Translations under genes and position numbers: made by a program
In this document: positions 46,502 to 51,291 of the stretch, piece after piece
How the letters are laid out: each line of letters begins with the position of its first letter
Position numbering within the stretch: position 1 is the stretch's first letter
Notes under the pieces: model-generated
Told to the model about the DNA's origin: nothing
The model's database searches: none
The model's input: only the letters and a program-made list of their open reading frames with translations
From: Arthrobacter citreus
GTDB taxonomy: Bacteria; Bacillota; Bacilli; Bacillales; Bacillaceae_G
Length of the DNA: 64,000 nt
Assembly: GCA_013200995.1 (NCBI GenBank)
Contig: CP053688.1
Coordinates: forward strand, 992,001 to 1,056,000
Direction of reading: 5' to 3'

Positions 46502-46999
46502 CGCTAGTCTATTTTTCTTAGAAATGTAAATTATTTAAACTATATAGGTACGGTTTTAAGTATGATATTTAAAGGGATTAGAACTATAATCCGATACTGA
46601 TTTGTTAACGTAGCCCTAGATATTAATCAAATAATAATAATCCCTTTTAAGATTTCTAAAGCTTATTTAGCATATTGCTATAGTTGAATGAAGGGTACCT
46701 AAAAGTTGTCTAATTAGACAACTTTTTTTTATTTTATAATTAAACACTGAAATTTTACTGAGCCATTAATAAAAAAATTATTTAATCATTCAGATACTTG
46801 CTCGATCTATACTTTAAAAAAGGAAATTTAACAATCTTAATATAACTATTTTTGTCATTTCAATGTTTGTAAAAATAAATTGTTTTTGTAAATAATTACA
46901 TCTCATATGATTTTCAATAATTTTATTAAACTAAAAAGTCAAAATGATAAATATATATGTTTAATAGAGCATAAAAAGAGTATAGCGGAGGAGTGAAAA
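46502..46999. other. Intergenic stretch before the vWA/TelA cassette
   Basis: No ORF. It holds a terminator (46701-46732), a TGTAA-N4-TTACA palindrome at 46887-46900 that may be an operator for the cassette, and the ribosome site GCGGAGGAG. Confidence 0.45.
46701..46732 (+). terminator. Terminator
   Basis: AAAAGTTGTCTAATTAGACA and its symmetric half make a 12-bp stem followed by a T run. Confidence 0.75.
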
Positions 47000-47734
47000 A
47001 TGACTAAAGGGTTAAAATTAGTGGGGCTAATCGCTTTCATAAGTATTTTGAATGTGATTGTATTTTCTCCTGGATTAATCGGAATCCAATTAACTAATTC
47101 AAGTGCTTTTCAAACTGCTTTTGGTGTTTCGTTCATAATAGCGAATATATTCGTACTAATTTTTAGCATGTTCCATCTATACTTTAAATCTGCAGAAGTA
47201 AAACCAATCAGGAAACTAAAAACGAATGAAGACTATGTCGAGGCTCTTAGTCGCTTTAAAAATAGTAAAGTTTTAAAAGATGATATTATTACCTCAATCG
47301 AGCAAATACAGCGAATGAAAAAGAAAAAAGGATTGTTTAATAGTTTACTCTCTAATCGTTTTTCACCAACAGAAATTACATACAGCAAGTTTGCAGCTGT
47401 TGTGGACGAGGTTGAAACTTTATTTTATTTAACGATTAGAAACATCTTAAATAAAATCAGTACTTTTGATGAATCTGAATACAGAAAGATAAAAGGTAAA
47501 GATGGCTTTCGATATTCAAAGTCTTTACTCCAAGAAAAGATTAATCTGTATAATGAGTATTTCGAATTTATTCAAAGAGCAGTTGAAATGAATGAGGAAA
47601 TTCTAGTCAATATTGATAAATTAATTTTGGAAATTTCTAGGCTTGATGAAATCGGAATTGATGAAATTGAAAATATGGAATGTATGAAAGAAATTGATTC
47701 TTTAATTCAACAAACAAAACATTATAGACAATGA
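47000..47734 (+). CDS. Two-helix membrane protein of vWA/TelA cassette
   Basis: Protein of 244 residues: two N-terminal membrane helices (residues 5-27 and 37-60) and a cytoplasmic helical domain with many charged residues (FKNSKVLKDDIITSIEQIQR, DEVETLFYLTIRNILNK). First gene of a three-gene operon; its stop overlaps an ATG upstream of the vWA protein start. It occupies the place that XpaC has next to TelA in B. subtilis, but I see no clear XpaC similarity. GCGGAGGAG precedes the ATG. Confidence 0.7.
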   Translation: MTKGLKLVGLIAFISILNVIVFSPGLIGIQLTNSSAFQTAFGVSFIIANIFVLIFSMFHLYFKSAEVKPIRKLKTNEDYVEALSRFKNSKVLKDDIITSIEQIQRMKKKKGLFNSLLSNRFSPTEITYSKFAAVVDEVETLFYLTIRNILNKISTFDESEYRKIKGKDGFRYSKSLLQEKINLYNEYFEFIQRAVEMNEEILVNIDKLILEISRLDEIGIDEIENMECMKEIDSLIQQTKHYRQ

Positions 47735-47751
47735 ATGAAAGGATGAAAAAA

Positions 47752-49431
47752 ATGAAAAAAAGTAAATTTTTTTTCGCATCTATTATCGTTATCGTTATTG
47801 TTTTTCTTCTTGTCTATATCGGAGTAAATTTAACGTCAGATAAAAAAGTAGTAAAAATTACAGATAAAAATAAAAGTCAGCAATTAGAAAAAATGATATC
47901 TAACATAGATATTTCCAAGGTAAAGCCAATTAAAGGGCAGATTGACTTAAATACAGCTGATGTAGCAAGTGAACTTCCTGATATTTCAAAATTTCCTGTA
48001 TCAGTTGAAAATACAACTGAAAACTATGTTGAAATATTTTCGTCAACAGAAAAATCAAGTGATGGGAAAAATGGTTGGTTAAATGAAGTTGCAAGTAAAT
48101 TTAATAATGCAAAATTCAATTTAAATGGTCATCAAGTATCTGTAAAAATTCGAAACATAGCATCTGGAACGGCAACGGATTTTATTAAATCAAGTAAATA
48201 CGTCCCAGATGCATTTACACCTTCAAATGAACTTTGGGGTCAAATGATTACAGCAAGTGGCGTTAAAACAGAAACAATTTCGAGCCGATTAGTCGGCAAT
48301 GTACCTGGTATTGTCATTTCAAAGGCAAAATATGATGAATTGATGAAAAAATACGGAAAAGTCGATACGAAAACTGTTATTGATGCTATGACGAAAAATG
48401 AATTATCTATGGGTTATACGGATCCATTTACTAGTTCAACAGGTTTGAATTTTTTAGTTACTGCATTAAATTCCTTTGATTCAAAAGATGTTTTAAGTGA
48501 AACTGCTGTAAAAGGTTTTGAAAGTTTCCAAGCAAATGTACCTTTCATTGCTTCAACAACACTTCAAATGAGTGATGCTGCGGAATCGGGTGTTTTAGAT
48601 GCATTTGTATTAGAGTATCAATCATATGTTAATTTACCTGATTTAAAAAATAGATACGAGTTTATCCCGTTTGGGGTACGTCATGACAGCCCTCTTTATG
48701 CATTAGGGGATTTACCGAAGGATAAAATTGATATATTGAATAAATTTGCAGAATTTACAGGTCAAAGTAATCTTCAAGAACTGGCAAAAAAAGATGGATT
48801 TAACGGGTTGAATAACTATACTTCAGAGCTAAAAGCGATCGATGGTAATACATTAACAGCTGCACAGAAACTTTGGAAAGGAAAGAAAAATACTTCAAAT
48901 CCAATTGCAGCCGTATTTGTAGCAGATGTTTCAGGTAGTATGGATGGAAAGCCATTAAATGAGTTAAAAGAATCATTACTAAAAGGTCAAAAGTATTTAG
49001 GAAGGGATAATAGTATTGGTTTAATCTCATATTCTGCGGATGTAACAATCAATCTACCGATTGCAAAATACGATGCGAATCAACAATCAAAATTCGTTGG
49101 AGCAGTATCTAGCCTTGATGCAGGTGGAGATACTGCAACAAATGACGCAATACTCGTAGCCATTAATATGCTCAAAGAAGAAATGAAAAAGAATCCAAAT
49201 GTAAGGCCACTCATATTTGTATTAACAGATGGTGAGACGAATCATGGTCATTCATTGAAAAATGTAAAAGGAATTATTAAAGCTTATAAAATTCCAATTT
49301 ATACAATAGGATATAACGCTAATATTAAAGCTCTTGAAAGTATTTCAAATATTAATGAAGCTGCAAATATTAATGCCGACTCAGATGACGTAATCTATAA
49401 AATTCGAAATCTCTTTAATGTTCAACTCTAA
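47752..49431 (+). CDS. Surface-anchored solute-binding/vWA protein
   Basis: Protein of 559 residues. N-terminal membrane anchor (FFFASIIVIVIVFLLVYIGV), then an extracellular solute-binding-like domain (residues 80-370; VEIFSSTEKSSDGKNG, WLNEVASKFN, AFTPSNELWGQMI, YTDPFTSSTGLNFL), then a vWA domain with a complete MIDAS: ADVSGSM near residue 390, a Thr in GGDTATNDA, and LTDGETNHG. A binding protein fused to an adhesion-type vWA. ATG 47752 is set by AAAGGATGA; in-frame ATGs at 47731 and 47743 lie before or on it. Confidence 0.83.
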   Translation: MKKSKFFFASIIVIVIVFLLVYIGVNLTSDKKVVKITDKNKSQQLEKMISNIDISKVKPIKGQIDLNTADVASELPDISKFPVSVENTTENYVEIFSSTEKSSDGKNGWLNEVASKFNNAKFNLNGHQVSVKIRNIASGTATDFIKSSKYVPDAFTPSNELWGQMITASGVKTETISSRLVGNVPGIVISKAKYDELMKKYGKVDTKTVIDAMTKNELSMGYTDPFTSSTGLNFLVTALNSFDSKDVLSETAVKGFESFQANVPFIASTTLQMSDAAESGVLDAFVLEYQSYVNLPDLKNRYEFIPFGVRHDSPLYALGDLPKDKIDILNKFAEFTGQSNLQELAKKDGFNGLNNYTSELKAIDGNTLTAAQKLWKGKKNTSNPIAAVFVADVSGSMDGKPLNELKESLLKGQKYLGRDNSIGLISYSADVTINLPIAKYDANQQSKFVGAVSSLDAGGDTATNDAILVAINMLKEEMKKNPNVRPLIFVLTDGETNHGHSLKNVKGIIKAYKIPIYTIGYNANIKALESISNINEAANINADSDDVIYKIRNLFNVQL

Positions 49432-49449
49432 TTGGTAGGAGGACTTTAG

Positions 49450-50598
49450 ATGTCATTTTCGATGCAAGTTGTAAATGAAGAAGAAATCAAGGCAGTAATA
49501 GAAGAGCAAGTTAAGCCAGTGCCTGAGGAATTAGTTAAATTAAAAGAAGCAGCAGAAGCAAATGTTGCGATGATTATGGAATTAAATACCGTTTCAAAGG
49601 AAACATTTGATCAACGTAAGGAGATCCTACAAAAGGTAGAAGCATTCGGGCTACAAACGATGAAATCCTCTGCGAATAAAAATTCGCTACTCAAGGTTTC
49701 TCTCGGTCAACTAGCTAAAAGTGGTGATGAGGGTGGGCAAGTTGCAAAAGGATTAGCGGATTTACAGCTTCAATTAAAAGATTTAGACCCAGGAGCAATT
49801 GATTTCGCAAAAACTGGTTTTCTAGGAAAGTTATTTAATCCAATCCGATCATATTTTCAAAGATTTGAAAAAGCAGATATCGCAATTGCTGATATTGTGA
49901 AATCACTTGATAAAGGGAAAAAAGTACTTGAAAATGACAACACAACATTAGAGCATGAACAGCTTTCGCTTCGAATGCTTTCAAAAACATTAGAAAAAGA
50001 AATTCAACTTGGAACATTAATGGATGAGTCAATTGAAAATCAAATTGAAAAAGCAAAAGTCGAGGGAGAAGAGCAGGAGAAAATAAAATTCATTACTGAA
50101 GAAGTTCTCTATCCACTACGACAAAGAGTAATGGATTTACAGCAAATGTTAGTAGTTAATCATCAAGGAGATATGTCATATGAGGTGGTTATTCGAAATA
50201 ACAGAGAGCTAATACGTGGTGTTGAACGTGCTAAAACAGTGACCATTTCCGCATTAAACACAGCAGTAACAGTTGCTAGTGCATTATATAATCAAAAAAT
50301 TGTATTGCAAAAAATAACTGCTTTAAATCGAACTACAAATACAATCATTGAAGGAACATCCAGATTATTAAAAGAACAAGGAGTTGCTATACAAAAACAA
50401 GCGATGGAATCGGCTGTTTCTGTTGAGACGCTTAAAACTTCTTTTACAAACGTTATATCTGCGTTTGAATCGATTAGTACATTTAAACAAGAGGCATTAC
50501 CAAAAATGCGTCAAACAATCTTGGAATTTCAAGAATTAGCTGAAGTCGGATCTCAACAAATTCAACGGCTTGAAAAAGGGGACCGACTTGGCTTATAA
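49450..50598 (+). CDS. telA: TelA-family (toxic anion resistance) protein
   Basis: Soluble helical protein of 382 residues of the TelA/YaaN family: DLDPGAIDFAKTGFLGKLFN, YFQRFEKADIAIADIVKSLD, LEHEQLSLRMLSKTLEKEI, RNNRELIRGVERAKTVTISA are all typical. Members are linked to tellurite, antibiotic or envelope stress resistance by unknown mechanism. GGTAGGAGG precedes the ATG. Third gene of the cassette; no terminator is seen before the truncated protease gene behind it. Confidence 0.9.
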   Translation: MSFSMQVVNEEEIKAVIEEQVKPVPEELVKLKEAAEANVAMIMELNTVSKETFDQRKEILQKVEAFGLQTMKSSANKNSLLKVSLGQLAKSGDEGGQVAKGLADLQLQLKDLDPGAIDFAKTGFLGKLFNPIRSYFQRFEKADIAIADIVKSLDKGKKVLENDNTTLEHEQLSLRMLSKTLEKEIQLGTLMDESIENQIEKAKVEGEEQEKIKFITEEVLYPLRQRVMDLQQMLVVNHQGDMSYEVVIRNNRELIRGVERAKTVTISALNTAVTVASALYNQKIVLQKITALNRTTNTIIEGTSRLLKEQGVAIQKQAMESAVSVETLKTSFTNVISAFESISTFKQEALPKMRQTILEFQELAEVGSQQIQRLEKGDRLGL

Positions 50599-50622: not shown

Positions 50623-51291
50623 ATGAAGCATGTAGCTCCATTTAATAGCCGTGGACCAGCTTGGCTGACATTTGACATAAAGCCTGAAATAACCGCACCT
50701 GGTGTCAATGTTTATTCTACAATTCCTTTTTATATGGATGGTGGAAACGGTAATTATGACTACTCATATGACCGATATTCCGGAATCTCAATGGCTTCAC
50801 CTCATGTTGCCGGCGTAGTTGCGTTACTAAAAGCAGCCCATCCGAACTTAAGTCAATTAGATATCAAATCGATTTTAATGAACACGGCAGAAAATGATAT
50901 TCCTGCAAATGTTGAAAATGTGGAAGTAGAAGTAAAAGTTCCAGGTCATTTATCTACTAAATTACAAATTAATGAAATAAATGATTTGATTAATTCTAAA
51001 TATGCAGGTAGTTTTATTAAGCTTCCAAATACTATGCTTACTCCTGGAGATATACATGGAGATGATGTAATTGATGTATTGGATGCAGTAGAAATCAAAA
51101 AATATTTGGGAACAGAAAACCGTTCAGCTGATATTAATTTTGATGGTACTGTAAATAAACAAGATATGTGGAGTGTTTATTTATATTATTTAGCTATAAA
51201 TGATGCTATTTTAAACGCACCTCAACCAAAAGAAACCTATAATGGAGAGACATTGCAAGATAATATGAATGAACTGGGAATTAAATTTTAA
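50623..51291 (+). pseudogene. 5'-truncated subtilisin-like protease with dockerin-like repeats
   Basis: An open frame of 222 codons begins just before FNSRGPAWLTFDIKPEITAP and holds the Ser motif GISMASPHVAGVVALLKAAH, but the Asp and His parts, prodomain and signal peptide are absent. The C-terminal part has two calcium-loop repeats like type I dockerin (DIHGDDVIDVLDAVEIKKYL; DINFDGTVNKQDMWSVYLYY). There is no ribosome site at 50623. The telA stop is only 25 bp upstream, so the cassette boundary seems to have cut the protease gene. Confidence 0.75.

Follow-up and report, generated by a model that had tools for sequence, protein, structure and literature searches.

What might a membrane protein, a receptor-like surface protein and a TelA protein do together when three tightly packed genes encode them? 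The question is raised by a locus within 64,000 nucleotides of Arthrobacter citreus DNA (assembly GCA_013200995.1, contig CP053688.1, positions 992,001 to 1,056,000, forward strand), here called the window, which belongs to a genome of 5.47 Mb (code G000, contigs C1 and C2). Three intact genes in the order P1-P2-TelA, all on the plus strand, span positions 47000 to 50598 of the window. The three genes are a real conserved unit. Whether they also form one trans-envelope module, in which a P1-P2 receptor would control sub-membrane TelA for the protection of the envelope, is in our estimate an evenly balanced question, and the evidence on both sides is presented below.

Organization of the P1-P2-TelA cassette

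The cassette is made up of the following genes:

47000..47734, plus strand: P1, predicted two-transmembrane protein with a helical cytoplasmic domain, without known family (open reading frame of 244 amino acids)
47731..49431, plus strand: P2, with a predicted N-terminal anchor, a SBP_bac_11 domain and a von Willebrand factor A (vWA) domain with intact metal-ion-dependent adhesion site (MIDAS), from Pfam and residue conservation (566 amino acids)
49450..50598, plus strand: TelA (PF05816), predicted cytoplasmic protein (Pfam E-value 3.5e-70; 382 amino acids)

P1 and P2 overlap by 4 bases, and 18 bases separate P2 from TelA. On inspection of the sequence, ribosome-binding sites of the GGAGG type are clear 5' of P1 and of TelA, and none of note stands 5' of the first ATG of P2. 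As P2 also overlaps P1, it may be translated by coupling with P1.

P2 combines a solute-binding protein (SBP) domain with a vWA domain: Pfam places SBP_bac_11 at residues 112-357 (E 1.3e-10) and VWA at residues 395-548 (E 5.6e-20), and hydropathy gives one N-terminal hydrophobic segment (residues 14-32). The P2 of a genome outside the class (G207, locus L019) and that of a virus contig described below (L170) have N-termini that were read by motif as lipoprotein-type signals, a reading that puts the remainder of the protein beyond the cell, so that its SBP and vWA domains are probably extracellular. Conservation was assessed on 44 sequences, namely 38 from genomes (the window included), 4 cyanobacterial and 2 viral. 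The MIDAS residues D399, S401, S403, T468 and D500 are kept in all 44, as are S145, Y229, P232, N240 and H318 of the SBP domain, where G228 is changed once. Without the virus copies, the remaining 42 proteins show 24 invariant columns in SBP and 18 in vWA, so both domains are under strong constraint; the conserved SBP residues may line a ligand pocket.

P1 had no match in Pfam or NCBIfam above cut-off and none in PADLOC or PHROGs. By hydropathy, the protein of the window has two hydrophobic segments (residues 4-22 and 40-58), and nine homologues have one to three membrane segments each. Its predicted model is all helical, with predicted local distance difference test (pLDDT) values of 80-91 across residues 71-210 (one ten-residue block is at 77) and of 52-68 outside them. 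TelA is a full PF05816 member (237.1 bits with respect to a cut-off of 30) in which hydropathy detects no hydrophobic segment. A first-pass annotation of this DNA, made by a model from the sequence alone, had described three tightly spaced genes for a two-helix membrane protein with a helical domain, a surface protein joining a solute-binding fold to a vWA domain with intact MIDAS, and TelA; our results bear out each part of this description.

Linkage of the three genes across genomes

A protein search with P2 over 398 genomes drawn from the phylum gave 29 matches, of which 19 were dropped as vWA-only and 10 were full length, the source genome included; searches with a P2 alignment gave 29 of 398 genomes in the class and 6 of 249 in the order. 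After removal of duplicates, the pooled set comprised 38 genomes with full-length P2, belonging to 9 family codes (43 loci, 5 of them repeats). With the profiles built here, P1 was found directly beside P2 in 38/38 genomes of all nine families, and TelA directly on the other side of P2 in 35/38 genomes of six families. In these Firmicute-type genomes the linkage is thus strict for P1-P2 and near-strict for TelA. Searching the phylum draw with P1 returned exactly the 10 genomes that have full-length P2 and no others. The first-pass annotation would have abandoned its candidate system had the genes not occurred together elsewhere; the three-gene neighbourhood recurs.

The close P2 homologues that a search for related loci gave belong to Gottfriedia or to strains catalogued as Bacillus sp. 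In 8/8 close relatives the three genes follow one another as in the window, P1 and P2 again overlapping by 4 bases, and 19 bases stand between P2 and TelA. Among the genomes of the genus, 12/13 carry P1; G951, of the same genus, has no P1, and the order search found no full-length P2 in it.

A putative trans-envelope path to TelA

Considering the predicted anatomy of an outside receptor domain, a membrane protein and a cytoplasmic TelA, which is compatible with a path across the envelope, we propose the following mechanism. P2 would be anchored through its N-terminal helix and would expose an SBP domain for ligand binding and, after it, a vWA domain that binds protein in a metal-dependent (MIDAS) manner. 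P1 would cross the membrane twice, with its helical domain in the cytoplasm, and soluble TelA would be recruited or controlled by P1 and act at the inner face of the membrane. An outside ligand or damage would be passed through the vWA domain to P1, by which TelA would be placed or released. Once placed, TelA could stabilise or seal the membrane against cationic peptides, cell-wall drugs and toxic oxyanions, and the module might also shield the cell against injection by competing phage. We infer the physical complex, its topology, the direction of signalling, the ligand and the protective function from the sequences; envelope protection is the most likely role, and phage exclusion is a serious alternative.

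The linkage of the three genes, the invariant MIDAS and SBP residues and the virus contigs described below speak for this mechanism, and several observations weigh against it. Most of the 38 genomes belong to one family (f5) and are closely related, so that the independent lineages number nearer nine. TelA is not next to P2 in 3/38 genomes, from 3/9 families: in G397 no TelA was found anywhere in the genome, and G207 and G378 have TelA at other places, with one copy per genome next to an XpaC-type gene, which indicates that P1-P2 can exist without a dedicated TelA. P2 in turn can exist without P1 and TelA, since neither was found nearby by profile in three loci of cyanobacterial SBP-vWA homologues, proteins which cover 80-87% of P2 at 31.5-33.7% identity and conserve the SBP and MIDAS residues. 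The structure model of P2 is poor (pLDDT 39.8), and its pocket is argued from conservation.

Links to SPFH membrane-scaffold genes count in favour of the module, but they are few and partly distant. Of three kinds of cyanobacterial plasmid locus, two have band-7 genes close to SBP-vWA, one small gene away in L065 (and its near copy L153) and 2.5 kb from the nearer SBP-vWA in L067, with none in L066, and two tandem band-7 genes, read as resembling HflK/HflC, lie about 24 kb from the cassette on the 88.6 kb virus contig described below. The closest link is in G342, which has, besides a full cassette, a second and weaker P1 match in the genome search (E 4e-9); this P1 paralogue (L150/L151, 6896-7693, minus strand) is directly upstream of a YqiJ-like gene (E 3.5e-4, just below the Pfam cut-off) and a band-7, flotillin-like gene. 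Because band-7 genes are present in all 14 control genomes, only this direct neighbour of P1 carries much weight.

The cassette on virus contigs

A scan of IMG/VR revealed all three genes together on two contigs. On L152 (IMGVR_UViG_3300028048_000113, 88.6 kb) the gene order is that of the window, with P1 at E 1.4e-32, P2 at 46% identity and TelA at E 3.7e-132. On L170 (IMGVR_UViG_3300021431_004083, 251.5 kb) the order differs, TelA being followed by a P1-like gene, four further open frames and then SBP-vWA. The TelA of L170 matches PF05816 at E 5e-76 but the model of the cassette TelA only at E 7.8e-5. Its P1-like protein (E 2.3e-11) reaches 33.9 bits, and none of the controls, which were 400 shuffles and 31 XpaC-type or other TelA-linked membrane proteins, exceeds 8.7; with a model made from bacterial P1 alone it reaches 29.8 bits, compared with at most 12.0 for the controls. 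The SBP-vWA protein is full length, at 38% identity to P2. L170 therefore carries the parts of the cassette in recombined form, and this joining of P1-P2 with a distant TelA speaks more strongly than any other observation for TelA as a functional partner rather than a bystander.

The same contigs lead to an explanation that we judge unlikely, while taking it seriously: the cassette would be an exclusion device in conflicts between phage and host or between phages, blocking superinfection or protecting the infected cell, and the bacterial copies would act against phage entry. The L152 contig is phage-like by content. In the 39.7 of 88.6 kb that were read, all retained frames but one run in a single direction, densely packed, and they include genes for a UvsX-like recombinase, a DnaB-like helicase, a primase, a Holliday resolvase and PhoH, with no tRNA; no structural gene was recognised in this part, however, and the whole record has no Terminase_6N. 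L170 is taken as viral from its inclusion in IMG/VR and from two homing-endonuclease-like genes. The TelA of the window and of the contigs matches a PHROGs family labelled tellurite resistance in the moron category, and in the phage records the L152 TelA has only distant relatives, in nine Lak megaphage records (20.5% identity over 63% of the L152 TelA), whereas P2 of the window and of L152 had no match in any of the 50,697 phage records searched. A published account reports TelA in jumbo phages and proposes superinfection exclusion for Ter components including TelA (PMC7824862). Against an exclusion device, no PADLOC family matched any of the three proteins at E up to 0.1, and within the genus the loci of the bacterial copies look stable.

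Among other genes of the 88.6 kb contig (L165/L166) are a Tpt1/KptA RNA 2'-phosphotransferase, a tRNA-His guanylyltransferase and a cell-wall hydrolase. The nine Lak records (H6-H14) are the Prevotella phages Lak-B1 to B9.

A wider proposal, that the cassette is an undescribed modular trans-envelope alarm, in which an outside ligand-binding vWA receptor acts by way of a dedicated two-helix membrane protein to assemble TelA under the membrane, and which large phages carry complete to close the infected cell to rivals, seems to us conceivable and rather doubtful. If it were true, L170 would show TelA to be an interchangeable effector and P1-P2 the receptor. The presence of the module on phage-like contigs would link this TelA module to phage-host conflict.

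Relation of P1 and TelA to the XpaC-TelA pair

In a further explanation, which we regard as improbable, the cassette would be a divergent XpaC-TelA system, with P1 as an unrecognised XpaC and P2 as an accessory. The layout is the same, and TelA adjoins XpaC in 26/29 XpaC loci examined. In a tree of 71 TelA rows, however, a branch with support 100/99 separates all 38 cassette rows from all 26 XpaC-linked rows (support of each group alone is 91/90 and 88/83, and long branches are present), and the TelA of the window is not on the XpaC-linked branch. Comparison of the P1 and XpaC profiles gave an hhalign probability of 0.5% and no hmmsearch match. PF10112 matched neither P1 nor 12 aligned P1 proteins at E up to 1, nor anything in 8/10 P2 genomes, the source genome included, and in G207 and G378 XpaC and P1 are separate genes. 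Because the profiles compared are shallow (effective number of sequences 2.7 and about 4) and PF10112 gave no hit in the control genome of Bacillus subtilis, it can miss distant XpaC-like proteins, and a remote kinship of P1 with XpaC is possible. By these profile comparisons P1 is not detectably XpaC, and the putative module is a parallel to the XpaC-TelA pair and not an instance of it.

In L059, L060 and L061 the gene directly before another TelA branch encodes a third type of membrane protein, one that has a long low-complexity linker, and a weak test detected no similarity between it and P1 or XpaC. It follows that TelA may have recruited membrane partners several times. The source genome has a second TelA (L001, G000:C1:3225725-3226690, minus strand) of another branch, directly beside a large protein, a layout like the YceG-YceH arrangement.

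Adhesion and uptake as alternative roles of P2

P2 might instead be a surface adhesin, its vWA domain binding a host, matrix or cell-wall ligand and P1-TelA serving only as an anchor to a sub-membrane scaffold. The best solved-structure matches of its vWA domain, which are inter-alpha-trypsin inhibitor heavy chains, calcium channel alpha-2/delta-1 and integrin I domains, would suit this role; a plain adhesin, however, would not need the invariant SBP residues, and inspection of P2 revealed no LPXTG motif or wall-anchor region, so that we find the idea hard to credit. Uptake of a nutrient or anion, with P2 as binding protein and P1 as membrane part, is very improbable: SBP_bac_11 is a family of extracellular solute-binding proteins, but no adjoining permease or ATPase was recognised when gene starts were inspected, without a family scan, in nine wide loci, P1 has just two membrane segments, and no role is known for TelA or vWA in a transporter of this kind. 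The trans-envelope module remains our preferred reading.

Surroundings of the cassette and the question of movement

Three further features flank the cassette in the window:

46701..46726, plus strand: terminator-like hairpin between an IDEAL-domain gene and the cassette (pattern scan; weak on its own)
46920..46999, plus strand: conserved leader 5' of P1, including its GGAGG ribosome-binding site (9 aligned upstream regions of the genus)
50623..51291, plus strand: C-terminal fragment of an S8 peptidase with a dockerin domain, outside the putative module (Pfam)

The last ~70 bases of the leader are very similar in 9/9 regions, which are poorly alignable further upstream. The scan that gave the hairpin counted 4 in the region, with 2.0 expected from shuffles.

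The first-pass annotation had taken the cut gene downstream as a sign that the cassette moved. This gene is a fragment matching only positions 186-276 of the 288 of the Peptidase_S8 profile, plus Dockerin_1, and it is a remnant of an expanded protease family, with 134 matching stretches genome-wide, most in frames of about 1,350-1,460 residues. Nothing matched it in the flanks fetched for 8 relatives. The AraC-type gene of the window is downstream of the cassette in 7/8 close relatives and was not found in L007; it follows directly or nearly directly in five, being split in two frames in L010, and other genes intervene in L005, where it is cut by the end of the locus, and in L008. Upstream, the eight relatives have several arrangements. 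With the AraC-type neighbour kept and the fragment found in 0/8 flanks, it is the fragment that arrived late or was left over, and the cassette seems to sit in its customary position. The inference of movement drawn from the cut gene is therefore not upheld. S8 peptidases with dockerin-type C-termini are hugely expanded in this genome, many of them close together on the map.

Over longer evolutionary times the picture may be different. P2 is patchy, being present in 0/6 same-order genomes of the phylum draw besides its own, and five of the six genomes found in the order are of the genus. This distribution, together with the virus contigs, suggests that the cassette has moved over such times. 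No close plasmid relative of P2 was found, the full-length plasmid matches being cyanobacterial (31.5-33.7% identity).

Comparison with known systems

TelA proteins are named for tellurite resistance, and the primary paper on the disruption of the Listeria TelA gene is that of Collins in 2010. Two papers state that loss of this gene, lmo1967, raises sensitivity to nisin, some antibiotics and tellurite (PMC11765107, PMC12791056). A transcriptome table in a Lactococcus paper on the CesSR envelope-stress system lists an XpaC-like gene and telA1 as raised (PMC3139573). Both findings on TelA relatives speak for envelope protection as the role of the cassette. A 2007 paper cited by an unrelated review relates TelA to the major vault protein. 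Searches of an open-access library gave no paper on the P1-P2-TelA set, judged by titles, the openings of abstracts and selected passages; a 2012 review of Ter-linked systems lay outside this library and may mention it.

In Cyanobacteria the SBP-vWA proteins, whose annotation says no more than VWA domain protein, are like P2 in their sites and coverage and unlike the cassette in having neither P1 nor TelA near in the three loci. On the cyanobacterial plasmids (L065, L066, L067) these genes lie near others whose annotations read CHAT or caspase family, band-7 or prohibitin, serine protease and DnaJ, and L067 has two SBP-vWA genes in tandem.

The XpaC-TelA (YaaN) pair of Firmicutes shares with the cassette a small membrane protein encoded beside TelA, a family for which envelope-stress phenotypes are reported; the cassette differs by a P1 unrelated in profile comparison, by the extra SBP-vWA protein and by its TelA branch.

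A likeness also exists to membrane-protection operons. One study, whose main text does not mention TelA or vWA, ties YuaF/YqiJ-flotillin operons to PspA membrane protection (PMC11237479), and the P1 paralogue of G342 stands directly upstream of a YqiJ-like and a band-7 gene. In the YdjFGHI (PspA-SPFH) operon, according to another study, small membrane proteins help to position a cytoplasmic protein that protects the membrane (YdjG/H, with YdjI and PspA; PMC8581546), as P1 is proposed to place TelA. The cassette of the window, in contrast, has no adjoining SPFH gene, and TelA is not PspA.

A related published view is that of the Ter network for resistance to tellurite, phage and xenobiotics, to which the cassette corresponds in having a TelA with a PF05816 match. 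TerB, TerC, TerD and nucleotide-making genes were not recognised in 17 wide loci when gene starts were inspected without a systematic Pfam scan. In the account of this network, TelA and the vWA protein TerF form sub-membrane structures that prevent the entry of phage or xenobiotics (PMC7824862), so a membrane-associated TelA with a vWA protein is not wholly outside known kinds. In the cassette the vWA domain is instead fused to SBP behind an N-terminal anchor and predicted to be outside, and a module with its own membrane partner and an outside receptor that has conserved binding and metal sites would offer a testable path from an external signal to TelA.

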